DNA from: Chloroflexota bacterium | Lineage (GTDB): Bacteria > Chloroflexota > Dehalococcoidia > JABGRK01 | Assembly (NCBI GenBank): GCA_018648325.1 | Contig: JABGRK010000012.1 | Span: 132,159-196,158, forward strand | Length of the DNA stretch: 64,000 nt | Direction: 5' to 3' | Shown here: one piece after another, positions 22,625 to 46,353 of the stretch | How positions within the stretch are numbered: position 1 is the stretch's first letter | How the letters are laid out: every line of letters starts with the position of its first letter | The notes under the pieces: model-generated | Databases searched by the model: none | Seen by the model: the letters and a program-made list of their open reading frames with translations, nothing else | What the model was told of the DNA's origin: nothing | Made by a program: the position numbers and the translations under genes

Positions 22625-22653
22625 GAACTTTTTTTCGCAATTTGGCGTATATA
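22625..22653 (+). promoter_or_regulatory. ECF-type promoter of sigma module 1
   Basis: GAACTT (-35 like, in a TGAACTTTTTTT run) and CGTATATA (-10 like) are separated by 15 bp. The same pair with identical 15-bp spacing precedes the PD40 lipoprotein gene at 28661-28689; even the ATTTGGCGTATATA block is shared. The GAAC core is typical of ECF sigma -35 elements. This suggests autoregulation. Confidence 0.65.
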
Positions 22654-22683
22654 GTAACAGGGGTAAGATAAGGAGAATAAAGC

Positions 22684-23214
22684 TTGGCGAAGCGCATCGG
22701 GTTGGACGATTTCGATAAGATCTTTCAACAGTACAAGGACATGGTATTTAAAACCGCGTACTTGACGGTAGGAAACGTGCAGGAGGCTGAGGATATATTG
22801 CAAGAGGTTTTTTTAAAGGTGTATGAGTCGGGCGGGACGTTTGATCCGGCTAAGGGTAGCATGAGTACTTGGCTGCACCGTATCACCGTTAACCACTGCA
22901 TATCGGGAAAGCGCAAAAAACGCCTTACCTCTTATTCCAGCGATGAGATGATGGAAGAAAGCGGCTTTGATATAGCCGATGTGACAGCCGAAGTTCCCGG
23001 GGAAATGCTGATAGAGCAGGAAGAGTGTTCAGAGATGTGGCAAGCGATCAACTCCATCGATAAGAAGCATCGTGCTGTATTAGCACTGAGATATTTTGAC
23101 GGTCTTTCTTACGATGAAATTGCCCGAGCACTGAATATGCCGCTGGGAACAGTAAAATCAAGGCTTAACGTGGCCATCAAAAACTTACGAAGCCAGATGG
23201 CCAAAGGTGAGTGA
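22684..23214 (+). CDS. ECF RNA polymerase sigma factor (module 1)
   Basis: A 176-residue group 4 sigma factor. Region 2 contains YKDMVFKTAYLTVGNVQEAEDILQ with the D-x-x-Q-E-V-F helix (ILQEVFLKVYE) and the region 2.4-like STWLHRITVN. Region 4 has HRAVLALRYFDGLSYDEIA and LNMPLGTVKSRLNVAIKNLR, the -35 recognition helix-turn-helix. Translation starts at TTG 22684 with AAGGAGAA just upstream. The next gene encodes its zinc-finger anti-sigma factor and overlaps or abuts the stop. Related sigma genes lie at 38964-39500 and 42440-42970. Confidence 0.92.
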   Translation: MAKRIGLDDFDKIFQQYKDMVFKTAYLTVGNVQEAEDILQEVFLKVYESGGTFDPAKGSMSTWLHRITVNHCISGKRKKRLTSYSSDEMMEESGFDIADVTAEVPGEMLIEQEECSEMWQAINSIDKKHRAVLALRYFDGLSYDEIARALNMPLGTVKSRLNVAIKNLRSQMAKGE

Positions 23215-23218
23215 CAAG

Positions 23219-24268
23219 ATGAATTGCGAACATATAAAAGAACAATTGCTCAGTTATATTAATAATGAATTAGATGCTAGCGAGCGGGAAAATATTGAAA
23301 GCCACTTTTTTGTGTGCCCTACATGTAAGGGCGAGATGGAGGCTCTTGCTGCAACCGAATCAAAGCTTCGCCAAGTATACGGTACGGTTGCGGCAGGGGT
23401 CTCTCCATCGCCCGGGGTCTTAAGTGAGATAAGGCAGGAAGTGGCAAGGCGCGAGCGCTCCCGTTCCACTCTTAGGGGTTGGATTGGTTTGCAGTTGAGA
23501 CAGACCTTTGCCAGATTCAATTGGCGCCGTCCTGTGCGACAGACGGCATTTGCCGGTAGTGTGGCAATGATCTGCCTCGCTGTGATTATGTTTAACAGGG
23601 GGCCAGGCAGTGAGCAGCTGTCAAATTCCGATTCTTTAAGCTTCGCATGGACGGCTAATGAGCAGGCGGCTATAGATATAGCCCTGAATGATCCCAGCGT
23701 GCAGGCCATGCTGGACGGTGAGGGAGTTGTGTATGAAGTTATACCCGTTAATGGTAACGGGACTACTGAAAAATATAAGGTTGCATTTTTTGATGTTGAT
23801 GAAGACGTAGCTGATGATATTAGCGAGAGAGGCTGGGACTCATATTCGGCCCCCAGTACTTATTCGGATGGGGTTGCTGTACCTCTTTCTGGAGAACTGG
23901 CATTTGATGCGTCAAACAATGCGATTGTGGACATAGAGGCTAACTCGGTGCTTCAATCTCATTCCAATAAAAATGCTGGTGCCAGTGTTTGGCTTAGTAC
24001 CGAGCAGATAGAGGAAGCGGCAGATATAGCTGTGTCCTACGGTAGCCTTGGGTCGGAGGCGGTTACTAATGGGGCGCTATCGATTGATTCGGAGGCGGAG
24101 GTACTTGTTAGAAACGTAACTCAGTTTAACGTTTATGATTCCTATTCCAACTCATTTAGTGACGAAATGGAGGTTTGGGTAAGGCTAACTATTGACGAAA
24201 CATCGTATTTTGCACAGGTTGATTTGGAAGAGGACAACGTGGTTAAGCTGATTGAAGGAGGAGAGTAA
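23219..24268 (+). CDS. zinc-finger anti-sigma factor with external domain (module 1)
   Basis: A 349-residue membrane anti-sigma factor. The zf-HC2 domain has C3, H29, C33 and C36 in MNCEHIKEQ ... ESHFFVCPTC, the redox/zinc fold that clamps ECF sigma factors. One membrane helix lies at about residues 108-125 (FAGSVAMICLAVIMF), followed by ~215 external residues rich in acidic and Ser/Asn residues, with no domain I recognise. The ATG at 23219 is chosen because MNC begins all three anti-sigma proteins in the window and AGGTGAG lies upstream; a GTG at 23207 would overlap the sigma stop. The stop overlaps the start of the propeller lipoprotein. Confidence 0.85.
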   Translation: MNCEHIKEQLLSYINNELDASERENIESHFFVCPTCKGEMEALAATESKLRQVYGTVAAGVSPSPGVLSEIRQEVARRERSRSTLRGWIGLQLRQTFARFNWRRPVRQTAFAGSVAMICLAVIMFNRGPGSEQLSNSDSLSFAWTANEQAAIDIALNDPSVQAMLDGEGVVYEVIPVNGNGTTEKYKVAFFDVDEDVADDISERGWDSYSAPSTYSDGVAVPLSGELAFDASNNAIVDIEANSVLQSHSNKNAGASVWLSTEQIEEAADIAVSYGSLGSEAVTNGALSIDSEAEVLVRNVTQFNVYDSYSNSFSDEMEVWVRLTIDETSYFAQVDLEEDNVVKLIEGGE

Positions 24269-26322
24269 TGGTAACTACCAGAGTTAAAAAAACATTGTTA
24301 ATTATTCTGGCTTGTGTTGGGATTATTGCTCAGGCGATGTTTGTTATGGCCTGTGATGTGCCGGCTGTAGGGGAAAACCAGATGCAACAGTTTTCCTCGC
24401 AAACTGAGTTAGAACAAACGCTTGAGCAGATGCGTTCTAATAAGTCTGGCGGCTGGAATAGTTATGATTCAGGGGGCATTCGCACATTTGGTAATCCTTT
24501 TGTTAATGGGGCTGTGATGGAATCTACAGATTCTACGATGGGTCCACAAGGGGCTGAAGGGACTGCAGGCGCTGCAGGGGATGATGGTTCAGTGCCGGGT
24601 ACCTATTCGCAGACCAATAATCAGGTTGTGGATGTGGACGAGGCCGACATAGTTAAAACCGATGGTAGCTATATTTACTACAGCGCAGGTCAAACGATTT
24701 ACATTTTGAGGGCGTATCCGGCTGATCAGGCCGAGATAGTATCCAAGATAGAGTTAGATGGGAACCCCTATCAACTTTTTGTAAACGACGACAGACTTGT
24801 GGTATTTGAATACCCTTCATATTCCTGGTACGGTGAATATGATCTGTACGTTGAAGATGCTAAGCATGGAGGTTCATTTGTTAGCAGTCAATATGTGAAA
24901 GTGTATGATATATCTGACAGGGCCAATCCTGAACTGGTAAGGGATATATCCACCAGCGGTAATTACGTAAGCTCGAGAATGATAGGCGATTATGTTTACA
25001 TGGTGATGAACGAGTATGCTTATGATTATAGTCGTGAAGATATAAACCTTCCCCAGATAAAGGTGGATAACGACGTTATTACTGTTCCGGCAACAGATAT
25101 TTACTATCCGGACATTATCGATGAAAGTGGCTATGGCTTTACCACGATTGTGGCCATAAACTTGAGTGATGATGACGCAGCACCGGATTATACGTCAATG
25201 CTTTTAGGCGCAAGTGGGGCAGTATATGTTTCCACAGATAACATTTATATAAGCCTGCAAAAGTATCTTCCCACCGGCAGTGTAACTCAGATTCACCGCT
25301 TCAGTGTTATCGATGGCGATGTGATTTACAGAGCAGCTGGTGAAGTTCCCGGCTGGCTTCTGAATCAATTTTCCATGGATGAGTACAACGGATACTTCAG
25401 GGTAGTAACTACCTCAAACGGCTTGGCTACAGGAACCACGCGGACGGACGTTATCACAGAGGATGGAGTTACCACAAGTGCGCCCGCGCCTATAGATGTA
25501 GAGATAGATAGCTGGACCACCAAAAACAACCTGTACGTTTTGGATATGGACATGGATGTGGTGGGCAAGGTGGAAGATTTGGCACCTGGCGAACGTATCT
25601 ATTCGGCGCGTTTTATGGGCGGTAGAGGTTATATGGTTACTTTCAGGCAGGTTGATCCGCTGTTTGCCATTGATCTTTCTGATCCGTACGATCCACAGGT
25701 GATGGGCGAACTAAAGATAACAGGGTACTCCGATTACCTGCATCCATATGATGAGAATCACCTTATCGGAATAGGCAAGGAGGCTACTGAACAAGGTAGA
25801 TTCCTGGGAATGAAGATTGCGCTGTTTGACGTAAGTGATATTAGCAATCCTCAACAAATCAGCGTATATGAGATTGGCGATAGAGGAACAGAATCACCTG
25901 CGCTGCATGACCACAAGGCGTTTCTGCTTGATACGGAAAGAAATGTGATGATAATCCCCGTTTCAATAGCGGAGGTTTATTCCGGTAATAATGCTGAGTG
26001 GTGGAACAGTCAGTATGTGTGGCAGGGAGCCATGGTCTTTGATATTTCGCCAGAGGATGGTATTGATCTGAAAGGCGGGATTTCTCACTACAGTGAAGGG
26101 CTGCCTGAGAATTACTATGGTTATAATGGGGGCTATGATGTTAAGAGGTCTCTCTATATAGACGACGTGTTGTATACTATGTCCGATGGCAAGATGAAGA
26201 TGAACGACTTTGACTCGCTAGATTACATAAATCAGGTGGCGCTTGAGGATGTGGATACAACGAATAATCCTGTTGGTATAGATGACGGAATACGAATGCC
26301 TCTTATGCCTATGATAGATTAA
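24268..26322 (+). CDS. beta-propeller lipoprotein (PF09826-like), module 1
   Basis: A 684-residue secreted protein. The N-terminus has a basic start, a hydrophobic stretch and a lipobox-like VMAC at about residue 29. The motif TNNQVVDVDEADIVKTDGSY is the signature of the Beta_propel family PF09826. Blades repeat phrases such as VYDISDRANPELVRD, FAIDLSDPYDPQVMGE and FDVSDISNPQQISV. A short Gly/Ala collagen-like linker (PQGAEGTAGAAGDDGS) lies near residue 92. It starts at the anti-sigma stop, so it belongs to the same operon and may act as the extracytoplasmic partner or ligand sensor of that anti-sigma factor (inference). Confidence 0.85.
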   Translation: MVTTRVKKTLLIILACVGIIAQAMFVMACDVPAVGENQMQQFSSQTELEQTLEQMRSNKSGGWNSYDSGGIRTFGNPFVNGAVMESTDSTMGPQGAEGTAGAAGDDGSVPGTYSQTNNQVVDVDEADIVKTDGSYIYYSAGQTIYILRAYPADQAEIVSKIELDGNPYQLFVNDDRLVVFEYPSYSWYGEYDLYVEDAKHGGSFVSSQYVKVYDISDRANPELVRDISTSGNYVSSRMIGDYVYMVMNEYAYDYSREDINLPQIKVDNDVITVPATDIYYPDIIDESGYGFTTIVAINLSDDDAAPDYTSMLLGASGAVYVSTDNIYISLQKYLPTGSVTQIHRFSVIDGDVIYRAAGEVPGWLLNQFSMDEYNGYFRVVTTSNGLATGTTRTDVITEDGVTTSAPAPIDVEIDSWTTKNNLYVLDMDMDVVGKVEDLAPGERIYSARFMGGRGYMVTFRQVDPLFAIDLSDPYDPQVMGELKITGYSDYLHPYDENHLIGIGKEATEQGRFLGMKIALFDVSDISNPQQISVYEIGDRGTESPALHDHKAFLLDTERNVMIIPVSIAEVYSGNNAEWWNSQYVWQGAMVFDISPEDGIDLKGGISHYSEGLPENYYGYNGGYDVKRSLYIDDVLYTMSDGKMKMNDFDSLDYINQVALEDVDTTNNPVGIDDGIRMPLMPMID

Positions 26323-26349
26323 ACTGGTTTGTGTTTTATTATACAAAGG

Positions 26350-26383
26350 AGGGAGTTTGCTTGAGCACTTAAGCAAACTCCCT
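26350..26383. terminator. intrinsic terminator between convergent operons
   Basis: GGGAGTTTGCTT and AAGCAAACTCCC form a 12-bp stem around an 8-nt loop, followed by TCTTACTTTT. It ends the sigma module 1 operon and faces the LOG-family gene. Confidence 0.88.
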
Positions 26384-26390
26384 CTTACTT

Positions 26391-27077
26391 TTATTTATCA
26401 TCCAGCGCTGGTTTGCCCATAAGTTCCTGTTTGTTATACCACTGCTCAACTGCATCGGTAACCTCGTCAGGGTGATCACAGACGCGCAGCAGGGAAAAGT
26501 CCTCATATGATATAAATCCCTTGGCCAGAACAGTGTGCCTGAGCCAGTCCAGGAAGCCCTTCCAGTAATCGCTGTCAAAAAGTATTACCGGAAATGGCTT
26601 TATTTTGTGTGTCTGCATAAGTGTAAGTACCTCGGAAAGCTCGTCCATTGTGCCAAGTCCGCCCGGGAATATGATAAAGGCAGAGGCGTATTTTACCAGC
26701 ATTACCTTGCGTATAAAGAAGTGGTCAAAGCTAACCGATTTTGTGGTGTAGGCATTGACGTTCTGTTCTTCAGGAAGCTCGATATTGAGTCCAACGGAAG
26801 TAGCCCCAGCTTCCATAGCACCCTTGTTTCCTGCTTCCATAACACCGGGGCCGCCGCCTGTGATAATGGCGAATCCCATCTCTCCCAGCTTCTTGGCTGT
26901 TTGCTCGATCTGTTTGTACAGCACTGTGTCCCGTTTAAGGCGAGCGCTGCCGTAGATAGTAACTGCCGGTTCGATACCGGACAACTTGTCAAATCCCTCT
27001 ACAAATTCGCCAATGAGGCGGAACATTCGCCAGGAGTCTTCTTTTACCAGATCATTTATTTCGTATCCGTTGGGCAT
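26391..27077 (-). CDS. LOG/TIGR00730 family Rossmann-fold protein
   Basis: A 228-residue member of the lysine decarboxylase-like LOG group. The two signatures are GGGPGVMEAGNKGAMEAG and FPGGLGTMDELSE, which in characterised members form the site of a nucleoside 5'-monophosphate phosphoribohydrolase (cytokinin activation type). The bacterial physiological substrate is often AMP, but is not certain here. The ATG at 27077 is chosen because GGAGGTT precedes it; a 10-residue upstream extension is unsupported. It follows the beta-CASP hydrolase gene by 30 bp and is probably co-transcribed with it. Confidence 0.85.
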   Translation of the reverse strand: MPNGYEINDLVKEDSWRMFRLIGEFVEGFDKLSGIEPAVTIYGSARLKRDTVLYKQIEQTAKKLGEMGFAIITGGGPGVMEAGNKGAMEAGATSVGLNIELPEEQNVNAYTTKSVSFDHFFIRKVMLVKYASAFIIFPGGLGTMDELSEVLTLMQTHKIKPFPVILFDSDYWKGFLDWLRHTVLAKGFISYEDFSLLRVCDHPDEVTDAVEQWYNKQELMGKPALDDK

Positions 27078-27107
27078 GATAACCTCCGTATGAACCTGTT
27101 TAAGCAA

Positions 27108-28514
27108 CTAATCCAGGATTACCTTTTGTCTGTATTCCGGCACCAGCGTGTCCCATCCTGTTTTTTGAGTGATATACTTACCGAAACTGTGAGCCGATTT
27201 TTCCTCACCGTGAATGATAAACACCTTTTTAGGTGGGTTTGTTAGTGCGGTTAACCACGTTAGAAGTTCATCTTTGTCGGCGTGTGCGGAGAATCCGTAT
27301 ATCTGTGCTACATTGGCCTTTACCCTGTACTGTTGACCCATAACCCTGACGCTTTTTTTGCCGTCTACTATGATTCTGCCCAGCGTGCCGATAGCCTGGT
27401 ATCCGATGAACATCAGTGTACTCTGTTTACGCTCTATATTGGCGGCCAGGTGATGTTTTACTCTGCCGCCGGTGCACATTCCTGATCCGGCAATTATCAT
27501 GATGGTGCCTTTTATGAAATTGATGCCCTTTGACTCCTCTGTTGCCGGGGTCATCTTCAGACCCGGGAAGTCAAACGGAGATTTATTCTGTTCTACCAGT
27601 TCGGTCATTTCCTCGTCGTAGTATTCCGGGTGGTTTCTGAACACCTCGGTCATTTTGATGGCCATGGGACTATCAAGAAATACCATGATGGGAGGTATTC
27701 GCTTTTCTTTACGCAACTTGTACATGAAGTACAGCATCTCTTGCGTTCGCTCTAGCGCGAAGCTGGGCACGACGATATTCCCGCCCGCTTCATATGTGTC
27801 GTTTATTATAGTAGCAAGGTTGTCTTCTATGCTTGAGGTTGGCGGGTGTACCCTGTCGCCGTACGTAGATTCGGTTACAACATAGTCGGTGTTCTTAAAC
27901 GTGTGCGGGTCGTTAATTATTGGCTTGTCATTTCTGCCCACGTCTCCCGAAAAGAGTATGGTTCTTTTTTCGCCGTCAACGCCTGCTGTTACCTTTATCA
28001 TAGATGAGCCCAGCACGTGTCCTGCATCGCAGAATCTGGCTGAAATACCGTCGCTGATTACGATCTCATCCTCGTACTCAATCGGTTTAAAGTGCGGCGC
28101 AACGGCTCTGGCGTCTTCTACGGTGTACAGCGGAACATCAGGGAAAGGGCCGCTTCTGCCTTCACGTTTATGTCTTTTTGCTTTATACTTGGCATCTTCT
28201 TCCTGAATGTGTCCCGAATCCAGCATAATTATATGAGCCAGCTCGGCGGTGGCATCTGTGCAATAGATTTTGCCTTTGAAACCATCCTTTACCAGCTTGG
28301 GTATCAGCCCGCTGTGGTCCAGATGGGCGTGAGTCAGTAGCACTGCGTCTATGGTATCCGGTGGTACGGCAAAAGGCTCCCAGTTTCTTACCTTCAGCTT
28401 CCTTTCCTGATACATGCCGCAGTCCACAAGTACCCTGCTGCCGTTGGCCTCGATCAGCGTACATGATCCGGTAACGCCGCGGGTGGCTCCCAAAAAGCTT
28501 AGTTTGGTTTGCAT
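27108..28514 (-). CDS. beta-CASP metallo-beta-lactamase-fold hydrolase (RNA specificity domain)
   Basis: A 468-residue protein of the CPSF/YSH1-like group. The metallo-beta-lactamase motif THAHLDHSG lies near residue 60, with GHVLGSSMI and FSGDVGR further on. The beta-CASP insertion and the C-terminal RNA-specificity motif VYGFSAHADKDEL-like (IYGFSAHADKDELL) follow. Family members are endo- or exoribonucleases. It begins with ATG 28514 behind GAGGTGATT. The adjacent LOG gene is likely in the same operon. Confidence 0.88.
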   Translation of the reverse strand: MQTKLSFLGATRGVTGSCTLIEANGSRVLVDCGMYQERKLKVRNWEPFAVPPDTIDAVLLTHAHLDHSGLIPKLVKDGFKGKIYCTDATAELAHIIMLDSGHIQEEDAKYKAKRHKREGRSGPFPDVPLYTVEDARAVAPHFKPIEYEDEIVISDGISARFCDAGHVLGSSMIKVTAGVDGEKRTILFSGDVGRNDKPIINDPHTFKNTDYVVTESTYGDRVHPPTSSIEDNLATIINDTYEAGGNIVVPSFALERTQEMLYFMYKLRKEKRIPPIMVFLDSPMAIKMTEVFRNHPEYYDEEMTELVEQNKSPFDFPGLKMTPATEESKGINFIKGTIMIIAGSGMCTGGRVKHHLAANIERKQSTLMFIGYQAIGTLGRIIVDGKKSVRVMGQQYRVKANVAQIYGFSAHADKDELLTWLTALTNPPKKVFIIHGEEKSAHSFGKYITQKTGWDTLVPEYRQKVILD

Positions 28515-28590
28515 AGATAATCACCTCATAAATAATTCAGTCGTTTGAGTGTGGGATATAAGATAACTTGCGCAATTATACACCATCTAT

Positions 28591-28638
28591 CAGGTTTATG
28601 ACATATTCACTTGACTGTGAAACCTGCAGTGGTATGAT
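28591..28638 (+). promoter_or_regulatory. inverted repeat and sigma-A-type promoter before the PD40 lipoprotein
   Basis: CAGGTTT (28591-28597) and AAACCTG (28620-28626) form a 7-bp inverted repeat with a 22-nt gap. TTGACT (28611-28616) and TATGAT (28633-28638) with a 16-bp spacer resemble a housekeeping promoter placed just before the ECF-type promoter at 28661. Dual control is a possibility only. Confidence 0.35.
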
Positions 28639-28660
28639 GCGGGCATAATAGTGAAAAAAT

Positions 28661-28689
28661 GAACTTTTTCTGCTGATTTGGCGTATATA
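28661..28689 (+). promoter_or_regulatory. ECF-type promoter of the PD40 lipoprotein
   Basis: GAACTT and CGTATATA with a 15-bp spacer, matching the module 1 sigma promoter at 22625-22653 in both elements and spacing, including ATTTGGCGTATATA. This places the lipoprotein in the predicted regulon of the sigma factor(s) in this window. Confidence 0.6.
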
Positions 28690-28705: not shown

Positions 28706-30218
28706 TTGAGCCTCATACGATTTACAATGGCGCTCCTTGTTGCAGCCATGCTGGTTGTGGGTATAGGCTGTAATGCTGGGGTGCGCACAAACGAACCTGT
28801 TGAAGGGCCAGTTGATAATTCTTCTCTGTCTACCGTAGTGCCTCCTGATACTAACGATATTCCCGAAGATGAGCCTGAACCTGAACCTGATCCTGAGCTT
28901 GTTGCTTGAGCCTTGGCCTATGCCTGTGATTATGTTTGAACCTGATCCTGAACCGGAAGATATGTGGCCCATTACCAGCTATCATAATGGTAACTGGAAT
29001 CCTGATAATTTTATTGCGCTGGATAGACCTCATGACCGTGACATATATATTATGAACGGGGATGGTTCGGAACCGGTAAATCTTACAAAAGATATAACAA
29101 CAAACTATTTCTTAGCAGACCTTCCTTCAGAAATAGGCTATATGATGTTCACTCACCCTCAATGGTCACCGGATGGGAGTAAAATCCTTTTCTGGGGTAG
29201 TGCTTACTATGAACCTACTTATTATGAAAGACCGAATCAATTCGGTGGATTAAGTAGTGGCTACGATAGGGAAGTAGCTGACAGTGCATACTATGTGATG
29301 GATTCGGACGGATCAAATATCATCAGGGTTATTGATTCTGGTTATGATAGGATTTTTTGGTCGCCCGATGGCAAAATCACTGTGGTTTACATAGATAAAG
29401 ACTATGTGGCAAACGAGCTTACTGAGGCAATAGTGGCAATGGATGCAGATGGCTCTAATTTAACAGAGCTCTTTTTTGAAATAACCCCGGATGGCAGGAC
29501 GTATAATAGGGTTAAGCAGGTATACTGGTCTCCAGATGGAAGTAAACTGGCTTTCATAAGAGATGACCACTTATATACGCTTAACAAAGATGGCTCAGAT
29601 TTGAAAGTACTCAATAGTGATGAAAACAAGATAAACACTTATAGCTGGTCACCGGATAGCTCCAAAATTGGATATGGCATATCTTGGGAATTCTACCTAA
29701 TGAATGCTGACGGTTCCAATCTTGTGGCAGTGTACAAAGCCGATAGTGCTACAATGAGACTTGAGTATTCACGTCGCTGGTCGGCAGATGGCAGCATAGC
29801 GGTGTATCATTTTAACAATTATCTTAATTACTTCGTATATGCAGATGGCAGCATCCAATCAATAGATCATCGTGATAACGGATGGTCTTTCATATCGCCG
29901 GATGGTTCCAAAGTTGCCTTTGAGCAATCCCACGACGTATACGTAATGAACGTTGATGAATCAGATAAAATAAACCTGACAGATAACGATATAGGTGGAA
30001 GTTTTCGTCGCTGGTCTGCCGACGGCAGCCAAATATATGTTAAAGCAAGTAGTGCAATATATGCTATAGATACGGATGGTTCAAATGTAATTAAGATAAT
30101 CGACAATCCTGCCGGAGAGTCGACAATAGTAAAAAAGTATTACTGGTCACCTGATAATAGCAAAATACTTGCTGATATAGAAAACAGGGATACCTTTGAG
30201 ATTTTAACCTCGGAATAG
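28706..30218 (+). pseudogene. PD40/TolB-like beta-propeller lipoprotein with a single-base frameshift
   Basis: The first 67 codons from TTG 28706 (after AGGAG) encode a lipoprotein signal peptide (LLVAAMLVVGIGC) and a Pro/Glu linker, then stop at TGA 28907. The rest, to 30218, continues in the next frame with repeats such as WSPDGSKI and MDADGSN that form PD40 beta-propeller blades. Removing one T at 28906-28907 joins the two: ELVA continues into EPWPMPVIMFEPDPEPEDMW, which extends the same linker. The intact product would be about 503 residues, anchored outside the membrane. It may be a true mutation, an assembly error or a recoding site. Confidence 0.75.
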
Positions 30219-36601: not shown

Positions 36602-38983
36602 TTAGGGTGTTAACCATAGATTCTCCTTGTAATGCAGGATGGTGCCATGGCCTCCTACCGCATATACATTTGTGGTAGATGTGCCCCATATGCCCTTGAG
36701 CTCACCTGTGGTGTCGCTGTCCATCTTGGTCCAGTCAGCGCCATTGTAGTGATAAATAGCGCCATCATGACCTGCAGCATAGACGCTTTTTGATGCGCTG
36801 CCCCAGACGTCATCAAAGCTGGCCCTGCTGTTGATTGTCATCGTACTCCAGGCACTGCCGTCGTAGTGATAAATGTCATGGCCTGCAACAAAGACATTGG
36901 TTGAGGAGCTTCCCCAGATTCCGCCTTGCCCGCTAATACTTATGCTAACATTGCCGGTGTCCATTTCGCTCCACGCATTGCCGTCGTAATGCATAATAAC
37001 GCTATCTGATGAGCCGTAGCCGGAGCCATGGAATGAACTAATTATCCTGCCGGAGGCGAAAACATTGGTTGACGAACTGCCCCAGACGGAGCTCAGCACG
37101 TATTGTTTGGCCCCTATATCCACCCTGCTCCATGACGTGCCGTCATAGTGTAGGATGACAGCTTCTATTTTGGTTATATTATGCTCATTTTCACTTACTG
37201 TAACTCGTTCCATGTAATTGCCAACGGCATATACGTCATTAGGGCCGCTGCCCCATATATCATCTATATCTACGCTACTCCACTCATTAGGTCCCTCAAG
37301 CAAATCTCCTGTATCCATTACCTCCCATGTTGTGCCGTCGTAATGGATAATCATTGAAAACATAGGAACATCTTCATTATTGTTGCCCCAACCATAAGCA
37401 AAAACATCGGTTGCCGAACTGCCCCAAATGGAGGTTAGACCACTTGTTGCCGGGCTGTCCATCAGGGTCCAGCCGTTGCCATCATAGTGCATTATGGTTT
37501 CTTTGCTTCCAAGGGTATTGGAGCCGTCTCCCACGGCATATATATCATCCGGAGCGCTGCCCCAGATGTCGCGGAAGTTTTGTGTGCTGCGTCCTGCGCC
37601 GTTTTGCTCCAGCGGGCTCCATGAGTTTCCGTTGTAATGAGCTATAGCGCCTGCGTAACCCACGGCGTAAACATTATCAGAAGCGCTGCCCCACATTCGA
37701 TCAAGCCCGCGTATATCGACCAGTTCTGTTATACTCCATGAATTGCCGTCATAATGCAGGATGGCATCATTGTAACCTACATGACCTTTGGCAAATATAT
37801 TGTTCGGCGCGCTACCCCAGATGCTGCTTATTCCCTGCGATGTGTCGCTGTCCATCGCGGTCCAACTGTTGCCATCATAGTGCAGGATGGTGCCATTTCC
37901 CCCTACGGCAAATACGTCGTCTGATGCGCTGCCCCAAACACCTAAAAGCGTATCTTCGGTGCCGCTATCCATTTCGCTCCACTCTGTACCGTCATAGTGC
38001 AGGATGAAATTCCCGTTAACGGTAGTCCGTTCTATGTTGAAATTTCTCACTCCTACTGCGAATATATCATTTGGACCACTTCCCCATATACCAAGAATTC
38101 CACCTGTGACACCACTGTCCATCTTGGTCCATGCATTTCCATCATAGTGCAAAATGTTGCCCCTGGATCCTACAGCATATACGTTGTCTGATGCACTCCC
38201 CCATATGCCAAAAATTCGGCCTGTAGTTCCACTATCCATTTTGCTCCAAGTGCTGCCGTCGTAATGAAGAATGACAGTATCTACTTCCAGATCACTGCCT
38301 TTATAGCCCCCCCATTGCTCTGCCTGTGCGGCAAATACATCCTGGGGCCCACTGCCCCAGACGGCGCTGAGTTCTTTTTTTGTACCGCTTGTCATTGGAT
38401 TCCATTCGCTACCATCGTAGTGTATGATAGTGCCTCCTACACCTACGGCAAAGATATCGTCAGAAGAAGAGCCCCATATGTCGTTGAGCCCGTCACCCTG
38501 TGGTTTGGGATTCTGCCATCCCCAGCCATCGTCGCTGACAAGAGGATTGCGAATCATTAGCGGTTCAGTTTGTGGTGGTCCTTGTGGAGACAATCCAACG
38601 ACGAGTTGTGTTACCACCAGCGCAGCAATTAGGGCTACTGCCAGCGTACTGGCGATCGCCCTCTGCCATAGTGGGCGCAACCAGAATGCTTGTACCCATC
38701 TGGATACTTTTGCCTTAATCGAATGCAGCATGGGTAGTTTGCTGCTTTTTTCTTGGGTTATACGTCGTTTAATTGCCACTAAGGTATGTGCGGGGACATC
38801 AAGTGTATCAATCGATTCCTGCATAGTTTGGCGGAAGTTGTTTTGCGCGCAAGACAGGGCTTCACGTTCTGCCATGCAATCAGGGCAGTGTGTGATGTGA
38901 GCCTCTATTGACGCTTTTTCTTCTGTATTTGCGCCGCTATCCAAATAAGTTACAAGCATATCTTTAACGTGTTTGCAGTTCAT
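36602..38983 (-). CDS. anti-sigma factor fused to a 14-repeat extracellular propeller-like domain (module 2)
   Basis: A 793-residue membrane protein. Residues 1-40 are a zf-HC2 anti-sigma domain with C3, H29, C33 and C36 (MNCKHVKDM; HITHCPDC). One membrane helix lies at ~109-131. From ~residue 165 to the end there are about 14 repeats of ~45 residues with the pattern IWGSxxxDVFAVGxxGTILH, then HYDGxxWxxMDSGT. Such WGS/HYDG repeats resemble beta-propeller blades. The start overlaps the sigma 2 gene by 20 nt. The protein most likely holds the sigma at the membrane and releases it when the outer repeats bind or bend (inference). Confidence 0.88.
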   Translation of the reverse strand: MNCKHVKDMLVTYLDSGANTEEKASIEAHITHCPDCMAEREALSCAQNNFRQTMQESIDTLDVPAHTLVAIKRRITQEKSSKLPMLHSIKAKVSRWVQAFWLRPLWQRAIASTLAVALIAALVVTQLVVGLSPQGPPQTEPLMIRNPLVSDDGWGWQNPKPQGDGLNDIWGSSSDDIFAVGVGGTIIHYDGSEWNPMTSGTKKELSAVWGSGPQDVFAAQAEQWGGYKGSDLEVDTVILHYDGSTWSKMDSGTTGRIFGIWGSASDNVYAVGSRGNILHYDGNAWTKMDSGVTGGILGIWGSGPNDIFAVGVRNFNIERTTVNGNFILHYDGTEWSEMDSGTEDTLLGVWGSASDDVFAVGGNGTILHYDGNSWTAMDSDTSQGISSIWGSAPNNIFAKGHVGYNDAILHYDGNSWSITELVDIRGLDRMWGSASDNVYAVGYAGAIAHYNGNSWSPLEQNGAGRSTQNFRDIWGSAPDDIYAVGDGSNTLGSKETIMHYDGNGWTLMDSPATSGLTSIWGSSATDVFAYGWGNNNEDVPMFSMIIHYDGTTWEVMDTGDLLEGPNEWSSVDIDDIWGSGPNDVYAVGNYMERVTVSENEHNITKIEAVILHYDGTSWSRVDIGAKQYVLSSVWGSSSTNVFASGRIISSFHGSGYGSSDSVIMHYDGNAWSEMDTGNVSISISGQGGIWGSSSTNVFVAGHDIYHYDGSAWSTMTINSRASFDDVWGSASKSVYAAGHDGAIYHYNGADWTKMDSDTTGELKGIWGTSTTNVYAVGGHGTILHYKENLWLTP
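36620..38520 (-). repeat. DNA encoding 14 tandem WGS/HYDG repeats
   Basis: The coding strand repeats a ~120-150 bp unit with recognisable shared phrases (GGxAGTGTxxTGGGGxAG for the WGS part, CATTAYGAYGGC for HYDG). Copies differ by scattered substitutions, so the array is old or under selection for the protein. It is a protein repeat array, not a CRISPR or a satellite. Confidence 0.75.
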
Positions 38984-39500
38984 TTTGCACCTCCTTTAGT
39001 TGCTTTTTCTTAAGAGAGGTAATGGCTGCGCTGATACGCGATTTGACCGTGCCCAGAGGGATATCGAGCGTTTCGGCTATTTGTTCATAAGACAGATCGT
39101 CAATGTATCTGAGCATAAGTGCTGCCCTGTACCTGCCGCTGAGCGAGCTTAGCATTTGTTCGATGGATTGCTTTGTTGCCAGCTTTTCGTTGAATTCAAC
39201 GATTTCTTCGTCCGGGTGGTGGCCGTTTTGGTGCAATTCATCTAGCGAATAGCTATACTTCCCTGATTTTTGTTGCCTTGTGATACATTCATTTACCGTG
39301 ATACGGCGAAGCCATGTGGCCATGCTTCCTTTTTGCGAATCAAACGACTTGCCCAGCCTGTAAACCTTGATGAAAACGTCCTGCAGAACGTCATCGGCTT
39401 GGCTGCGATCGCTCAGTGTCAGACAGGCGGTTCTGAAAACCATGTTTTTGTATTGCTCGAAGATATTCTCGAAATCCGCCATATCAAGGTGCTTAGCCAA
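38964..39500 (-). CDS. ECF RNA polymerase sigma factor (module 2)
   Basis: A 178-residue group 4 sigma factor. Region 2 contains YKNMVFRTACLTLSDRSQADD and VLQDVFIKVYRLGKSF, then MATWLRRITVN. Region 4 is YRAALMLRYIDDLSYEQIAETLDIPLGTVKSRI. The start is TTG 39500 behind AGGAGACC, matching the TTG starts of the other two sigma genes. Its stop overlaps the start of anti-sigma 2. It has an ECF-like promoter upstream on the minus strand. Confidence 0.92.
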   Translation of the reverse strand: MAKHLDMADFENIFEQYKNMVFRTACLTLSDRSQADDVLQDVFIKVYRLGKSFDSQKGSMATWLRRITVNECITRQQKSGKYSYSLDELHQNGHHPDEEIVEFNEKLATKQSIEQMLSSLSGRYRAALMLRYIDDLSYEQIAETLDIPLGTVKSRISAAITSLKKKQLKEVQNELQTR

Positions 39501-39530: not shown

Positions 39531-39560
39531 TATATACCAAGGTGCACCTTAAAAAAGTTC
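39531..39560 (-). promoter_or_regulatory. ECF-type promoter of sigma module 2
   Basis: On the minus strand CCGAACTTTTTT has GAACTT at 39560..39555 and GGTATATA at 39538..39531, with a 16-bp gap. This is one base longer than the two best sites at 22625 and 28661. The motif supports self-activation by the module's own sigma or a sister sigma. Confidence 0.55.
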
Positions 39561-40251: not shown

Positions 40252-41388
40252 ATGAAGGTATCATGTATTAAAGATAATCTGAGCAAAGGACTTGCAATTG
40301 TTGGGCGTGCGGTGGCAACCAGAAGCACCATGCCTATTACTCAAAATATTCTTATTACCGCCAAGAAATCGTCCGGATTGAAACTGGCGGCGACCAATTT
40401 AGAGATAACCATGACCTGCGACGTAGGTGCCGAAGTCGAAGAAGAAGGATCGATAACCGTACCTGCCAGGCTGCTTACGGAGTTTGTCAATTCGTTACCC
40501 AGCGATACTATTACCATCAATCTTCCTGCTGATAGCCGCACTGTGGAGCTCAAGTGCGCCCGCTATAAGGCACGTATAAACGGGATGGATGCCAAGGATT
40601 TCCCCAAGATACCTACAGTAAGCGACGGCCTTAATATCAAGATTGCCCCGGATGCACTGCGTGAGGCCATTGGCAAGGTGGTTTTTGCGGCGGCTACCGA
40701 GGATTCGCGGCCGGTACTTACCGGCGTTCAGGCTGAGTTCGCAAACGGTGGCCTGACATTGGCAGCGGCCGATGGTTTCAGACTTGCAGTGTACAAGATG
40801 GCACTGTCAGAACCATTGAGTGAGGATATGTCGCTGATAATCCCCTCCAAATCATTAGGAGAGATTAATCGCTTGCTTACCGATCAAGAAGAAGCTGTTG
40901 ATATTACTGTTAACGCAAATCGCAGCCAGGTATTGTTTAACCTCAAGGGTGTGCAGATGGTGTCCCAACTTATTCAGGGTGCATTTCCTAACTATAATCA
41001 GTTAATACCACAGAGCAGCAATACCAAGGCTGTTATCGGGCTTGGCGAATTCCTGAGAGCCACCAAAAGCGCATCGATTTTTGCTCGTGACGGCAGTGGC
41101 ATTGTAAGATTGCAGATAGTTCCTGCTGCGGAAGGTGAAGCCGCCAAGATAATGATTTCGGCACAGGCAGAGGAGCTTGGAGACAACGTTAGTGAGCTCG
41201 ATGCCGAAGTTGATGGTGAAGAGGCCAAGATCGCCTTTAACAGCAAGTATCTGGGTGAGGTTTTGGGTGTAATTACTCAGGATAAGGTTACCCTTGAGAC
41301 TACAGGGTCATCAAGCCCCGGTGTGCTAAAGCCGATAGGTGATGATAACTACATCCATATAGTTATGCCGATGTTTGTTCAATGGTAG
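40252..41388 (+). CDS. dnaN: DNA polymerase III beta sliding clamp
   Basis: A 378-residue clamp of three repeated domains. The N-terminus MKVSCIKDNLSKGLAIVGRA is typical. Other markers are VPARLLTEFVNSLP, EDSRPVLTGVQAEF, FPNYNQLIPQSS and the C-terminal HIVMPMFVQW. GGGATGTG lies before the ATG. It is about 4 kb from dnaE, but no dnaA, recF or DnaA-box cluster is nearby, so this is not evidence of an origin here. Confidence 0.96.
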   Translation: MKVSCIKDNLSKGLAIVGRAVATRSTMPITQNILITAKKSSGLKLAATNLEITMTCDVGAEVEEEGSITVPARLLTEFVNSLPSDTITINLPADSRTVELKCARYKARINGMDAKDFPKIPTVSDGLNIKIAPDALREAIGKVVFAAATEDSRPVLTGVQAEFANGGLTLAAADGFRLAVYKMALSEPLSEDMSLIIPSKSLGEINRLLTDQEEAVDITVNANRSQVLFNLKGVQMVSQLIQGAFPNYNQLIPQSSNTKAVIGLGEFLRATKSASIFARDGSGIVRLQIVPAAEGEAAKIMISAQAEELGDNVSELDAEVDGEEAKIAFNSKYLGEVLGVITQDKVTLETTGSSSPGVLKPIGDDNYIHIVMPMFVQW

Positions 41389-41524
41389 GTGGAGCATGGT
41401 CTATAGGCTGAAATGTGAAATCAGTTGAGAATAGACTATGAAAGCTAAATACAAGATTGTAATCATCTTTTAGGAAGTTAAAAGCTTCTTGGATGCATTG
41501 TTTGTAAATGTTGATTTTTCGCAT
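41363..41524 (-). CDS. possible remnant of a small gene (53 codons), overlapping the dnaN 3' end
   Basis: From an ATG at 41524 the minus strand encodes 53 residues beginning MRKINIYKQCIQEAFNFLKD and continuing DYNLVFSFHS. The first half has the amphipathic look of a real small-protein N-terminus, but the second half is unconvincing and runs into the dnaN gene. I see no good ribosome binding site. It may be a decayed gene fragment or chance. Confidence 0.25.
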   Translation of the reverse strand: MRKINIYKQCIQEAFNFLKDDYNLVFSFHSLFSTDFTFQPIDHAPPTIEQTSA

Positions 41525-41654
41525 CACGACTACCTCAAATGGCTAACCTAGTATTGCCTGCGTTATATCACAACAGGTTTATTGGGATGTTCCGCAACTC
41601 ATGTGTACGGTTGGGCGATACCTTTTCGAACGTATGTTAAGGTGTAAAAATGTA

Positions 41655-41677
41655 CTTAAGCGATCAAAGCGCTTAAG
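41655..41677 (-). terminator. hairpin at the truncated end of the alpha/beta hydrolase
   Basis: CTTAAGCG and CGCTTAAG form an 8-bp stem with a 7-nt loop. On the minus strand it is followed by TACATTTTT. The hydrolase stop codon lies inside the stem. Confidence 0.45.
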
Positions 41678-42179
41678 ATATCCCCAATATTGTTATAGGG
41701 CAGGGAAATATGAGCCATCGTATAAACTGAGGTTTACCGGGCCAGGTCCAGCTGAGTCCATCCTTAGCTCCCGGTGCATCCGCCGGCCCCATTCCGGATA
41801 CTATCCCTGTTGCAGTCAAGCGCTCAGGTATCTTGTAGGCACAGGCGGCAGCATAAGGCCCGCCCCCAGACATCCCCAATACCGCAAAACGATTTATTTT
41901 AAACGCATCGGCCAGTTCAGCCACATCATCAGGCCAATCCAGCATTTCCCGATCAGGCTTGGGGTCAGACAGACCCATACCAGGACGATCAACAGCAATA
42001 ATGCGCGTATTGAGTTCAGCGGCAACGTTATTGGAATCACTGAGCAGCCAGTCTAGCCGTGAACTGGGAAACCCATGGAAATAGAAGACAGGCTTACCCT
42101 GCGGATCGCCATATTCAGCATATCCCAGCGCTCTTCCGTCACTCAGCGTTATTTGTAGTTCTGTTCTATCTATTGCCAT
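41673..42179 (-). pseudogene. alpha/beta hydrolase, truncated after the nucleophile
   Basis: The 168 residues start MAIDRTELQITLSDGRALGY and contain the oxyanion motif FYFHGFPSSRLDW and the nucleophile Ser in LGMSGGGPYAAACAYKIPE. The protein stops where the cap would begin, and the second half with the catalytic Asp and His is missing. Intact relatives are about 270-300 residues, and I see no continuation in any frame in the ~280 bp before dnaN. It is probably a pseudogene left by deletion; a stable short protein is less likely. Confidence 0.65.
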
Positions 42180-42383
42180 ATTTGGGCCTCCAGTTTGAAT
42201 AGATTTGAAGCATTATACCACGATGAACATCTGGGTAACTATATAGATGTGCCTATACTGTTCTGGTATGAGATTAGCCCGAGGCATTCTTTTCATTTTT
42301 ACTGCAACTTCCTTTAGCTTGCACTTTGTATTGCGGCTGGATATATTAAACATGATCATTCTGTTCTTTTTGAATGATAGACC

Positions 42384-42412
42384 GAACTTTTTTCCGTAAT
42401 TTTAGCTATTAG
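42384..42412 (+). promoter_or_regulatory. candidate ECF-type promoter of sigma module 3
   Basis: CCGAACTTTTTT with GAACTT at 42384-42389 is identical to the -35 region before sigma 2. The expected -10, 15 bp later, is a weaker GCTATTAG. The -10 element is therefore uncertain. Confidence 0.4.
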
Positions 42413-42439
42413 TTTATAACGAAGACAGGTGAATTGGGC

Positions 42440-42970
42440 TTGGTGAATCAGGGCATGATGGATGATTTTGAAACAATTTTCCATCAATACAAAAACTGGG
42501 TGTATAAAACCGCCTATTTGATTGTGAGAGATCCTCACAGGGCAGAGGATATCATGCAGGAAGTATTCATCAACGCATATAAATCCGGTCATACGTTTGA
42601 CCCTCAAAAAGGTAGCTACAGAAACTGGCTGCGTGCAATTACCGTCAAGCAGTGCTTTGCCAGGAAAAGTAAAAAGCACCAGGGCTCTTTTTCTCTGGAT
42701 GAACTTGAGGAAAAAGGCCTAAGCGTAGCTGATAAAAGCCCGTCGATTCCCGATCAAGTATCACTAAAAGATGATATGAAAAGGTTAATCGATTCTCTCA
42801 GCCCCAAATACCGCGCAACGCTTTTGCTTAGATATTACGAGGGGCTTTCCTATGACGAGATTGCACAGGTATTGGATATTCCGCTGGGAACGGTTAAATC
42901 CCGAATAAATGCTGCGGTTTTGAGATTACGTAAGACGCAGAAGGAAACAGCTCGGAAAAACAAATTATGA
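42440..42970 (+). CDS. ECF RNA polymerase sigma factor (module 3)
   Basis: A 176-residue group 4 sigma factor. Region 2 has YKNWVYKTAYLIVRDPHRAED and IMQEVFINAYKSG, then NWLRAITVKQCF. Region 4 has YRATLLLRYYEGLSYDEIAQ and LDIPLGTVKSRINAAVLRLR. I chose TTG at 42440 because AGGTGA lies 8 bases upstream and this gives the same TTGG start as in the other two sigma genes; TTG 42434 is an alternative. The stop overlaps the start of anti-sigma 3 by 4 nt. Confidence 0.9.
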   Translation: MVNQGMMDDFETIFHQYKNWVYKTAYLIVRDPHRAEDIMQEVFINAYKSGHTFDPQKGSYRNWLRAITVKQCFARKSKKHQGSFSLDELEEKGLSVADKSPSIPDQVSLKDDMKRLIDSLSPKYRATLLLRYYEGLSYDEIAQVLDIPLGTVKSRINAAVLRLRKTQKETARKNKL

Positions 42971-45900
42971 ACTGCAATGAAATACAACTTAAACTGGTCA
43001 GTTACCTGGATAATGCTTTGCCTGACTGGGAGCGCGAGGATATTGAGTATCATCTGTCTGTGTGCCCGGGATGCAGAGAGGAGCTAGGGGCTCTCGCAAA
43101 TATTCAGGCAGTATTTCACCAAGCCTTTGAAGAAACTGCTGCGAGAGCCTATCCCTCAACTGGCGCTTGGACAGAGTTTGAGCGCCGTATGGCAAAACCA
43201 AAACGCCGCTCGGTTCCAACGTTTGGCTGGGCCAAAACCATATTTGCCGGTTTGAGTCGAACGTTTGGGAAGCGTCGTTTGTGGCAAAAAGCGTTCGCCA
43301 TCGTGCTGGTTGCTGCAATTACAGCAACGCTGTTGGTAACAGACCCGTTTGCCCGAATGTCACCATCCGGTATGCTTGCCAGTGCCGCCGAGACAACCGG
43401 TAGTGTGCAGACACTGCATGCTTCTGTAGAAACAACTGGAGATTACTACGCAAGTTATGAAATAGATTACAATTCCTCGGGTCAGTGGGACTTAATCGAT
43501 AACTCGCCGCAAAGCGATTCGATTCAGTATCGCAATGTTGATTCCATGCTTTACTATCGAAGCTCTAATGATAGCGGCTGGTTGCAAGATGATAATCCGC
43601 ATATACATCAGATAGACGAAACTATTGCCCAAATAAGCCCGACCGCTAATGCTGTAAAGCTGACGTGGCTATCTGAAGCTGATAACGCTGCCGAAATCGT
43701 AGTTCTTCCCGATGAAGTTATCAGTGGCATTAATTGTGTACGTTATAGGGCTACGTATGGTGCTGATGAAAACCAGCCGATTATTATAGATTACTGGATT
43801 GGCAAGAGTGACCACCTGGTATACAAACAGAGCTATAGCGATGCCTGGACCACTACTTCAGATATTAACCTGTATGGCAATTTCTTTGCCCAAGGGACGG
43901 TAATAAGCATTACTTCAACCACAACGTTTACTGCTATAGATCGACCCGTTACTATTGTGGTGCCGTCCAGCAGTGCCATTCAGCCGTTGATTTCTAATAT
44001 CAGCGCATTTGACATTACAGTTATCCACGCCACTATAGGCTGGACCACGAATGTACCGGCTACCAGCCAGGTGGAATACGGCGAAACAAATCTTTATGGC
44101 GCAACTACCACGCTTGATAATACACTGAAAACCAGCCATAGCGTCACTCTAGCCGGGCTTGAAGCTGGCACACTTTATCACTTCAGGGTTAAATCAGAAA
44201 ATGGATCGGGGAATGAAGCTATTTCTGGTGATAATACGTTTACTCCCACGGCAGCGATAGATATTACAGAGCCGATTATATCAAACGTATCCAGCGCAGA
44301 CATCACGCATAACAGCGTTGTGATTAGCTGGTCCACTGACGAAACAGCTACTAGTCTGATTGAGTATGGACTGAGTGACACCTATGGTTCAACTACTGCT
44401 TTAAATACTGCGCTGACAACTACTCATGGTATTGCGCTTACAGGACTTGAGTCGGATACTATCTATCACTATAGGGTCAAATCGATGGATGGCTCTGATA
44501 ACGAGGCTGTATCAGGCGATAATAGCTTCACTACTGATGTTGGTGGTGATAGTGGCGGAGAGCAGCAGCCTGGCTGGAATACTCAGACTGTTGATTTCCC
44601 GGGTGGACAACCGTCGCTTGCATTGGACAATAATGGAAACCCAGCTATGAGCTATTTCTATCACAATGGTAATAATCTAAGATATGCGCATTGGAATGGC
44701 ACTAGTTGGGATATTGAAACAGTTGACTCGGCGGATGGAGCGGTTGGCGTCAATAGCTCGCTATCGTTTGACAGCAATAATAACCCTGCTATAAGCTACG
44801 CGGATGCTGATAATCATCTCAAGATTGCCCGGTGGAATGGCTTAAGTTGGGAAATGGAACTGGTGGATTCCGATGGTTTGGTCAGTGACCATTCTTCGCT
44901 TGTCTTTGATAGCAATGGTGATCCTGGTATCAGTTACTATTATATATCATCCAATGATTTGAAATATGCTTATTGGGATGGTTCAAACTGGGATGTTCAT
45001 GTGATAGATTCTGGGGTAAATACAAGCTCCTCGCTAGCCTTTGACAGCAATAGTAACCCAGTTATTTGTTATACAAACCAAGATGTGCATCTAAAGTTTG
45101 CCCAATGGAATGGTTTAAACTGGGATATTCAAGTGGTCGATACAGAGGGAGAGGGGTATCCCTCACTGGCCTTTGATAGCAATGGCAACCCTGTTATCAG
45201 CTACCAGGATAAAGATCGCTATCATCTTAAACTTGCTCGGTGGGATGGCTCAAGCTGGAATATTGAGACAGTTGATTCAAGTAATCCTGTTTGGGCTAAG
45301 GGGCTTGGTTCTATTAGTTCACTGGCGTTTGATATTAACGGCAATCCAGCTATTAGTTACAGCGATATTACCAATAACAATGATAGGATTAAATTTGCCT
45401 GGTTTAATGGTTCAAGCTGGGATATTGATGTGTTAGGCCCATCCTTGGATACAATTTGTCAAAGTTCATTGGCTTTTGATAGTCAAGGTAGGCCGCATGT
45501 AGTTTATCACGGCCAGGACAATGCTATGAAGTACGCTTATTATAATGATAGCAATGGTAGTGGTGATAAAATTGCCTTTGCTTCAATCCGTGATGGTAAT
45601 TGGGAAATATATACAATGGATGCAGATGGCACAGGTCAGACTAATAACACCAATAATCCGGAAGACGATAGCAGGCCCGCATGGTCTCCTGATGGCTCAA
45701 GTATTGCTTTTACTTCGTACCGTGACGGCAATTGGGAAATATATACAATGGATGCAGATGGGGGTAACCCAACCAGAATCACATATAACACTGCTATAGA
45801 TTTTACTCCCTCATGGTCGCCTGACGGCACAAAAATAGCTTTTTATTCTACCCGTGATGGCAACAGGGAAATATATGTAATGAATGCCGATGGTACAAAT

Positions 45901-46353
45901 CAGACCAGGCTTACCAATAATCCTGCCAGCGATCGATCTCCTTCATGGTCATCAGATAGCTCAAAAATAGCGTTTTACTCTGACCGTGATGGCAATGATG
46001 AAATCTACGTGATGAATGCTGATGGCACGGGTCTAATCAATATCACCAGTAATCCGGCTAAGGATTATTTTGCCGCATGGTCGCCGGATGGGGCAAAGAT
46101 CGTTTTCGTTTCGGATCGCGATGGTAATCAAGAAATCTATACTATGAATGTCGACGGCTCCAGCTCGACAAAACTTACCGATTCATCAGGTGTTAATTAT
46201 GCTCCCACGTGGTCATCTGATGGTTCAAAAATCGCATTTGTTGCTGACAACAACGGCAATCTTGAAATATATACAATGAATGCAGATGGTACAGGCCAGA
46301 CCAAGATTACCGATAACTCAACTGATGATCATTATCCAACGTGGGCACCTTAA
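42967..46353 (+). CDS. giant anti-sigma factor with LolA-like, Fn3, BNR-like and PD40 propeller domains (module 3)
   Basis: A 1128-residue membrane protein. Residues 1-40 are zf-HC2 with C3, H29, C33 and C36 (YHLSVCPGC). A helix at ~109-126 crosses the membrane. Residues ~150-310 resemble a LolA/RseB-like lipoprotein-binding fold (LHASVETTGDYYASYEIDYN). Two fibronectin type III-like domains follow at ~338-425 and ~436-525, each with a GLExxTxYHFRVKS motif. Residues ~535-860 hold about seven repeats of SLAFDSNGNPVISY / ARWNGSSWDIETVDS. Six PD40 blades (KIAFYSDRDGNDEIYVMNAD) end the protein. The ATG overlaps sigma 3 by 4 nt. The outer domains probably sense a surface ligand or envelope state (inference). 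Confidence 0.88.
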   Translation: MNCNEIQLKLVSYLDNALPDWEREDIEYHLSVCPGCREELGALANIQAVFHQAFEETAARAYPSTGAWTEFERRMAKPKRRSVPTFGWAKTIFAGLSRTFGKRRLWQKAFAIVLVAAITATLLVTDPFARMSPSGMLASAAETTGSVQTLHASVETTGDYYASYEIDYNSSGQWDLIDNSPQSDSIQYRNVDSMLYYRSSNDSGWLQDDNPHIHQIDETIAQISPTANAVKLTWLSEADNAAEIVVLPDEVISGINCVRYRATYGADENQPIIIDYWIGKSDHLVYKQSYSDAWTTTSDINLYGNFFAQGTVISITSTTTFTAIDRPVTIVVPSSSAIQPLISNISAFDITVIHATIGWTTNVPATSQVEYGETNLYGATTTLDNTLKTSHSVTLAGLEAGTLYHFRVKSENGSGNEAISGDNTFTPTAAIDITEPIISNVSSADITHNSVVISWSTDETATSLIEYGLSDTYGSTTALNTALTTTHGIALTGLESDTIYHYRVKSMDGSDNEAVSGDNSFTTDVGGDSGGEQQPGWNTQTVDFPGGQPSLALDNNGNPAMSYFYHNGNNLRYAHWNGTSWDIETVDSADGAVGVNSSLSFDSNNNPAISYADADNHLKIARWNGLSWEMELVDSDGLVSDHSSLVFDSNGDPGISYYYISSNDLKYAYWDGSNWDVHVIDSGVNTSSSLAFDSNSNPVICYTNQDVHLKFAQWNGLNWDIQVVDTEGEGYPSLAFDSNGNPVISYQDKDRYHLKLARWDGSSWNIETVDSSNPVWAKGLGSISSLAFDINGNPAISYSDITNNNDRIKFAWFNGSSWDIDVLGPSLDTICQSSLAFDSQGRPHVVYHGQDNAMKYAYYNDSNGSGDKIAFASIRDGNWEIYTMDADGTGQTNNTNNPEDDSRPAWSPDGSSIAFTSYRDGNWEIYTMDADGGNPTRITYNTAIDFTPSWSPDGTKIAFYSTRDGNREIYVMNADGTNQTRLTNNPASDRSPSWSSDSSKIAFYSDRDGNDEIYVMNADGTGLINITSNPAKDYFAAWSPDGAKIVFVSDRDGNQEIYTMNVDGSSSTKLTDSSGVNYAPTWSSDGSKIAFVADNNGNLEIYTMNADGTGQTKITDNSTDDHYPTWAP

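Follow-up and report, generated by a model that had tools for sequence, protein, structure and literature searches.

The nearest described analogue of the locus analyzed here is the SigI/RsgI system of Clostridium thermocellum (PMC4711584; PMC12203970). The locus consists of three modules, each an extracytoplasmic function (ECF) sigma factor gene with an adjoining gene for a membrane anti-sigma factor, that lie within positions 22625..46353 (~23.7 kb) of a 64,000 nt stretch of the Chloroflexota contig JABGRK010000012.1 (hereafter the window). Like SigI/RsgI, as described in PMC4711584, they are paralogous sigma/membrane anti-sigma pairs from mostly overlapping genes, with one membrane segment, differing C-terminal surface modules and related promoters upstream of the sigma genes, an arrangement for which cross-talk has been suggested. 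The RsgI modules, however, are carbohydrate-binding (CBM3, PA14, GH10) and the targets are cellulosome genes (PMC4711584), whereas here the anti-sigma domain is of the zf-HC2 type, the surface modules are either un-named or of propeller type, and the targets would seem to serve envelope defense. A Pfam search up to an E-value of 1 gave no RsgI family, and zf-HC2 and ECF regions occupy the places of the RsgI-type N-terminal domain and the SigI-type sigma.

Other known circuits share parts of this arrangement. RsiW of the Sigma-W/RsiW system of Bacillus subtilis is the best match to our anti-sigma profile, and NfeD and SPFH genes, which are under sigmaW in that organism (the sigmaW-dependent yuaFGI operon; PMC2636767), are among the likely targets here; the present set differs from Sigma-W/RsiW in its very large ectodomains, in its five paralogs and in that PrsW was not found. 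In ECF57 (PMC8999054) the WD40-like repeats are on the sigma factor itself, whereas here the repeats are on the anti-sigma. The class I anti-sigmas, which adjoin 72% of Chloroflexi ECFs, likewise combine a zinc-binding domain and a membrane helix with varied fused domains (PMC7406223), and a propeller is not named in text sections 6 (part 1) and 9 of that account. No description of an anti-sigma with a propeller or WD40 domain was found in the open-licence literature, in agreement with an initial annotation of the window, made from the sequence alone, which had named no described family of this architecture.

The usual account of an ECF circuit has one sensor, one sigma and one regulon. The reading that we favor, and hold to be somewhat probable, is that the three modules belong to a set of five paralogous ECF pairs with one promoter motif, whose different large ectodomains likely sense different surface conditions and act on one common envelope-protecting gene set. 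The assignment of P0002, P0004 and P0007 as anti-sigmas paired with the adjoining sigmas P0001, P0005 and P0006 is supported by domain content and gene order. Each sigma consists of the sigma2 and sigma4 regions only (~180 residues) and scores above the cut-off of TIGR02937; for sigma 1 the SigW models give the best score, yet one under their cut-off. The genes of a pair overlap by 8 bp in module 1, 20 bp in module 2 and 4 bp in module 3, zf-HC2 is above the Pfam cut-off in all three anti-sigmas, and in every module an H-x3-C-x2-C zinc finger, the mark of class I anti-sigmas, is encoded beside the ECF sigma. Pfam matches and gene overlaps together thus bear out the three ECF sigma/zf-HC2 one-helix anti-sigma modules in 24 kb that had initially been proposed. 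The identical C3-H29-C33-C36 finger proposed with them stands as numbered for modules 2 and 3; for module 1 it does so if the numbering begins at the internal ATG at 23219, the GTG start giving numbers four higher. A profile (A3) of 11 anti-sigmas of the ECF clade described below, built without P0004 and P0007, which carry the same zf-HC2, finds RsiW (5wuq) as its best match among solved structures at an E-value of 3e-4, with DdvA and two others following only at 0.01–0.5. The genome that carries the window (2.0 Mb, 93% complete) holds four zf-HC2 matches, three of them in the window, and the clustering within 23.7 kb has a probability of ~0.002 for three of four random points and ~0.004 for three of five.

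Each anti-sigma has one hydrophobic segment, beginning at residue 110, 113 and 110 in P0002, P0004 and P0007, respectively. Since Lys and Arg are concentrated on its N-terminal side (10, 7 and 10 in the 35 residues before it and 1, 2 and 1 in the 35 after), we predict an N-in, C-out topology that places the repeats outside the membrane. What lies beyond the helix differs in each case. P0004 has 14 WG[S/T] motifs at a spacing of 37–57 residues together with 14 HYDG-type motifs, as initially counted, and none of 2000 shuffles contained more than 2 WGS motifs; in sequence searches this array is above the cut-off of no Pfam family and has no PDB sequence match. P0007 carries fn3 in two stretches and PD40 in six by Pfam, the PD40 part resembling TolB structures by sequence, so that propeller-type repeats follow the helix in one chain; between them are seven BNR-like repeats at a spacing of 44–52 residues, which have no Pfam family name and of which none arose in any of 2000 shuffles. 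The propeller folds of these repeats are predicted. In module 1 the separate PF09826 propeller lipoprotein (P0003) was likewise upheld by its Pfam score and its lipoprotein-type leader, and the un-named ectodomain of P0002 can be aligned, both visually and within A3, with ten further anti-sigmas of the clade, where it occurs in two to about five copies. A PepSY-like identity for this ectodomain was dropped, there being no Pfam match in P0002 or the scanned clade members.

The two Fn3 domains, the BNR-like repeats and the six PD40 blades of module 3 were all part of the initial annotation, which also labelled the proximal part of P0007 LolA-like. This label (LolA/LppX/RseB-like) found no support from Pfam on P0007 and on the anti-sigma of contig C11, nor from a two-row profile run against PDB sequences, although these are sequence methods alone and a fold match is possible. 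The domain just past the helix is common to P0007 and the C11 anti-sigma at 32% identity, and P0007 looks like an anti-sigma of the C11 type to which Fn3 and two repeat arrays may have been added. In protein-database searches, the N-terminal part of P0004 gave no relatives among 969 candidates and that of P0007 gave only the window's own protein; relatives came through the genome searches.

The sigma genes, which had been called independent, are not so: the three modules are members of one paralogous set. The three sigmas are mutually 46–49% identical, and a five-row sigma profile (A2) run against 393 genomes of the class, a sample of a larger group in which at most eight sigma candidates per genome were scored and members may have been missed, finds 20 places scoring at least 165 bits, the next being at 123. 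Five of these 20 are in this genome, namely the three in the window and one on each of contigs C11 and C12, where two further sigma/anti-sigma pairs of the set are found; the zf-HC2 of the C11 anti-sigma is under the cut-off at 13.9 bits. In a tree of the last 190 residues of these 20 sigmas and of three outgroup sigmas, the 20 fall on one side of a branch with support 96/94, and the five own sigmas sit in a seven-row group with those of genomes G085 and G100 (98/98). Within it sigma 2, sigma 3 and the C11 and C12 sigmas group at 88/88, and sigma 3 with the C11 sigma at 91/54. A contig search with the sigma alignment gave six loci at 26–36% identity; the best, L043, from a Chloroflexota metagenome-assembled genome, was ruled out as a clade member by its score of 111 bits against the three-row sigma profile.

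The C12 anti-sigma (L144:2869-3243) is 124 residues long and ends just past the membrane helix; the following stretch shows no evident ectodomain. In the other genome of the genus (G001; 1.2 Mb, 90% complete), zf-HC2 gives no match, no clade sigma is among those listed, and PF09826 appears only as a 29-position tail match.

The pattern GAACTT-N15/16-SS-TATWW is found shortly upstream of all five own sigma genes, from which it was drawn, so those five matches are by construction. The whole genome holds 19 sites, i.e., 14 beyond the source sites, compared to 3 for the reversed-pattern control, and the window holds 4, of which one is new, compared to 0.06 expected in all from the shuffled window. 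In 34 other genomes of the class there are 0–5 sites each; the second genome of the genus, where no clade sigma was listed, has 2. A similar site can be seen by eye upstream of 12 of 17 clade sigmas (two of the 17 being own), in L146 and L149 just inside the called start of the open reading frame. The motif yields a first regulon prediction for this lineage.

Nine of the 14 further own sites lie 17–188 bp upstream of a start. The genes past them include a secreted serpin (Pfam, 406 bits; L187:1033-2283 on contig C17) with a lipoprotein-type leader, 22 bp past a strong site, NfeD and SPFH genes (Pfam) 130 bp past another, and the PD40 repeats (Pfam) behind the fourth site of the window. On our own reading of further sites, an ABC ATPase and permease (at 52 bp), a 280-residue lipoprotein (at 41 bp), and trigger factor followed by ClpP may also be targets. 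A 62-residue zinc-finger-like protein downstream of a site has a Pfam match under the cut-off, and two small membrane proteins downstream of sites match no Pfam family. Since the NfeD-SPFH genes of B. subtilis are targets of sigmaW (PMC2636767), the shared regulon suggests a response of the sigmaW-like, envelope type.

The features of the window are collected in Table 1. The lipoprotein-type leader and the PD40-repeat frame past the fourth promoter site overlap in two frames across a stretch coding for EPEPDP-type repeats, and the mismatch may reflect slippage at this site, a disrupted gene or an error in the sequence. Downstream of module 3, positions 48391-53504 (+) hold an ABC ATPase, a MacB/FtsX-type permease and a DUF2807 adhesin-like protein, and none of the four promoter sites of the window.

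Table 1. Sigma/anti-sigma modules, promoter sites and associated genes in the window (nucleotide positions; domain limits in the last column are residues).
Feature	Position	Strand	Description
Module 1 promoter site (GAACTT-N15-CG-TATAT)	22625..22652	+	pattern source site
ECF sigma 1 (P0001)	22684..23214	+	Sigma70_r2 and Sigma70_r4_2 above cut-off
Anti-sigma 1 (P0002)	23207..24268	+	zf-HC2, one helix, un-named ectodomain; likely start ATG 23219
Propeller protein with lipoprotein-type leader (P0003)	24268..26322	+	PF09826 at 557 bits
Fourth site of the shared motif	28661..28688	+	new, beyond the source sites
Lipoprotein-type leader frame	28706..28909	+	17 bp past the fourth site
PD40-repeat frame (P0129)	28869..30218	+	different frame from the leader
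Anti-sigma 2 (P0004)	36602..38983	-	zf-HC2, one helix, 14 WGS/HYDG repeats from residue 169
ECF sigma 2 (P0005)	38964..39500	-	Sigma70_r2 and Sigma70_r4_2 above cut-off
Module 2 promoter site (N16 spacing)	39532..39560	-	pattern source site
Module 3 promoter site	42384..42411	+	pattern source site
ECF sigma 3 (P0006)	42434..42970	+	Sigma70_r2 and Sigma70_r4_2 above cut-off
Anti-sigma 3 (P0007)	42967..46353	+	zf-HC2 3-37, helix from 110, proximal domain ~132-343
Anti-sigma 3 (P0007), distal part			2 Fn3 ~345-523; 7 BNR-like repeats from 550; 6 PD40 ~880-1128

Propellers are linked to anti-sigma-like proteins elsewhere in the phylum as well. At locus L031 of genome G100, zf-HC2, a helix and PF09826 are encoded in one chain beside a clade sigma, which looks like a fused form of the two neighbors in module 1 and would tie the separate propeller P0003 to the anti-sigma P0002. 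Between the sigma and the fused gene (L031:1584-1847) is a frame of 87 residues whose start is again zf-HC2-like and which resembles the remnant of a duplicated anti-sigma. Taking L031 together with 34 fetched stretches and excluding the window's own locus, a same-strand ECF gene is present in the stretch read for 15 of 35 PF09826 loci. In five of the 35, found in five genomes that belong to another family within the class, the gene of an ECF sigma from a different group lies 93–156 bp upstream of a PF09826 protein that begins with ~47–55 residues followed by a helix. Five further loci have an ECF gene and then a one-helix protein; L101, the sole one scanned, has Fn3-type repeats and no zf-HC2. 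A literature query with the PF09826 accession turned up one paper, by its title a protein-families pipeline.

The initial annotation had also proposed looking across the phylum for zf-HC2, a membrane helix and a propeller in one protein, and this architecture is indeed recurrent. Among the matches listed there were 13 zf-HC2 frames of at least 600 residues, of which 11 were fetched and one of 832 residues was added; with L199 left out (no frame passed the zinc-motif filter) and L197 not scanned, 10 proteins were scanned, nine of them from elsewhere in the phylum. Seven of the 10 have PD40, BNR or sortilin-type families above the cut-off, two have WD40 matches only under it and one has neither. 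With the other scanned zf-HC2 proteins of this length (P0004, P0007, L031, L032 and L149), the count becomes 9 of 15, made up of P0007, L031 and the seven. The sigmas adjoining the proteins of the phylum set reach 46–85 bits with the clade profile (29 for L199), and the zf-HC2 and propeller architecture is therefore not confined to this ECF clade.

The mechanism we propose for the favored reading begins with the zinc-finger domain, which, going by the profile match to RsiW, would keep its cognate sigma away from RNA polymerase. Some change in the ectodomain would then expose the anti-sigma to a first (site-1) protease, after which an M50 site-2 protease, for which the genome has two candidate genes whose role here is presumed, would free the cytoplasmic part, and the released sigma would transcribe its own operon together with the targets common to the set. 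Given the similarity of the five promoters, several inputs may converge on one output and cross-activation could occur. In module 1 the propeller lipoprotein P0003 would probably act as a co-receptor of its anti-sigma. Of the surface-sensing circuits initially proposed, then, the pairing, the predicted outside position of the repeats and the presence of PD40 in the P0007 chain have held, while sensing itself is what we infer from them. A bolder version can be entertained only tentatively: a many-input, one-output network of five pairs with swapped ectodomains (the un-named repeat domain, a WGS ring, a double propeller and a PF09826 co-receptor lipoprotein) that act on a single promoter type, among whose targets are a secreted serpin and a lipoprotein with a propeller, and with propeller anti-sigmas forming a phylum-wide, undescribed class of receptors.

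Other explanations have to be weighed against the favored one. The modules may be ordinary paralogous ECF/anti-sigma pairs with separate regulons, in which the repeats serve to span the wall or to adhere and the sigma is released under general envelope stress, with no ligand. This agrees with the C12 copy lacking an ectodomain and with the WGS/HYDG repeats being so common elsewhere, as their family is very large (6095 relatives among 7994 scored candidates) and zf-HC2 is absent from the Pfam domains of all 120 relatives listed (P0009-P0128). We nevertheless judge it unlikely, since zf-HC2 proteins with propeller-type ectodomains are found repeatedly next to ECF sigmas from other groups, PF09826 is joined to anti-sigma-like N-termini in two different ways, and a single common promoter motif argues against separate regulons. 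Less probable again is a protease-sensing circuit in which the ectodomains are bait cut by foreign or misplaced proteases and the secreted serpin of the response blocks them. Membrane anti-sigmas usually give up their sigma through two-step proteolysis (PMC10202637), and the serpin stands close behind a strong site, but it is a single target only, and a literature search for a serpin with an ECF or anti-sigma factor yielded nothing relevant. Repeat propellers, moreover, are usually protease-resistant.

We give least credence, amounting to a very slim chance, to an excess of promoter-like sites that comes from base composition or another sigma factor, with the three modules being neighbors by accident. 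Low-complexity T runs do follow GAACTT in many of the sites and the genome has other ECF-type sigmas; set against this are the excess over both the reversed-pattern control and the shuffled window, the low counts in the 34 other genomes, the clustering of the modules and the similar site upstream of clade sigmas elsewhere.

A number of observations pull away from the favored reading itself and keep our confidence in it limited. On the side of the ectodomains, a fused propeller-type array is present in only 3 of 20 clade anti-sigmas, the C12 anti-sigma terminates directly beyond its helix, the long zf-HC2 proteins L032 and L149 have no propeller family, and for 20 of the 35 PF09826 loci the stretch read contains no ECF gene on the same strand. 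The own five sigmas require two changes on the tree, and a single origin of all five is not established. On the side of the promoter, chance alone should account for ~3 of the 19 sites, and 5 of the 14 further sites are within genes or distant from a start; 5 of the 17 clade sigmas have no clear site by eye (none in L148, L152 and L155, nothing clear in L151 and L158), a looser second pattern was uninformative with 8 sites vs. 4 in its control, and in the 34 other genomes, 12 of which have clade sigmas, the motif is no commoner than the control, so that evidence for the larger regulon comes from a single genome. A PrsW-type site-1 protease was also not found, at an E-value of 0.001 in this 93% complete genome.

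Very different sensors are thus found on close paralogs that apparently share a promoter, which makes input convergence and the swapping of sensors testable, and beta-propellers, including PF09826, may be connected in this way to transmembrane signalling.

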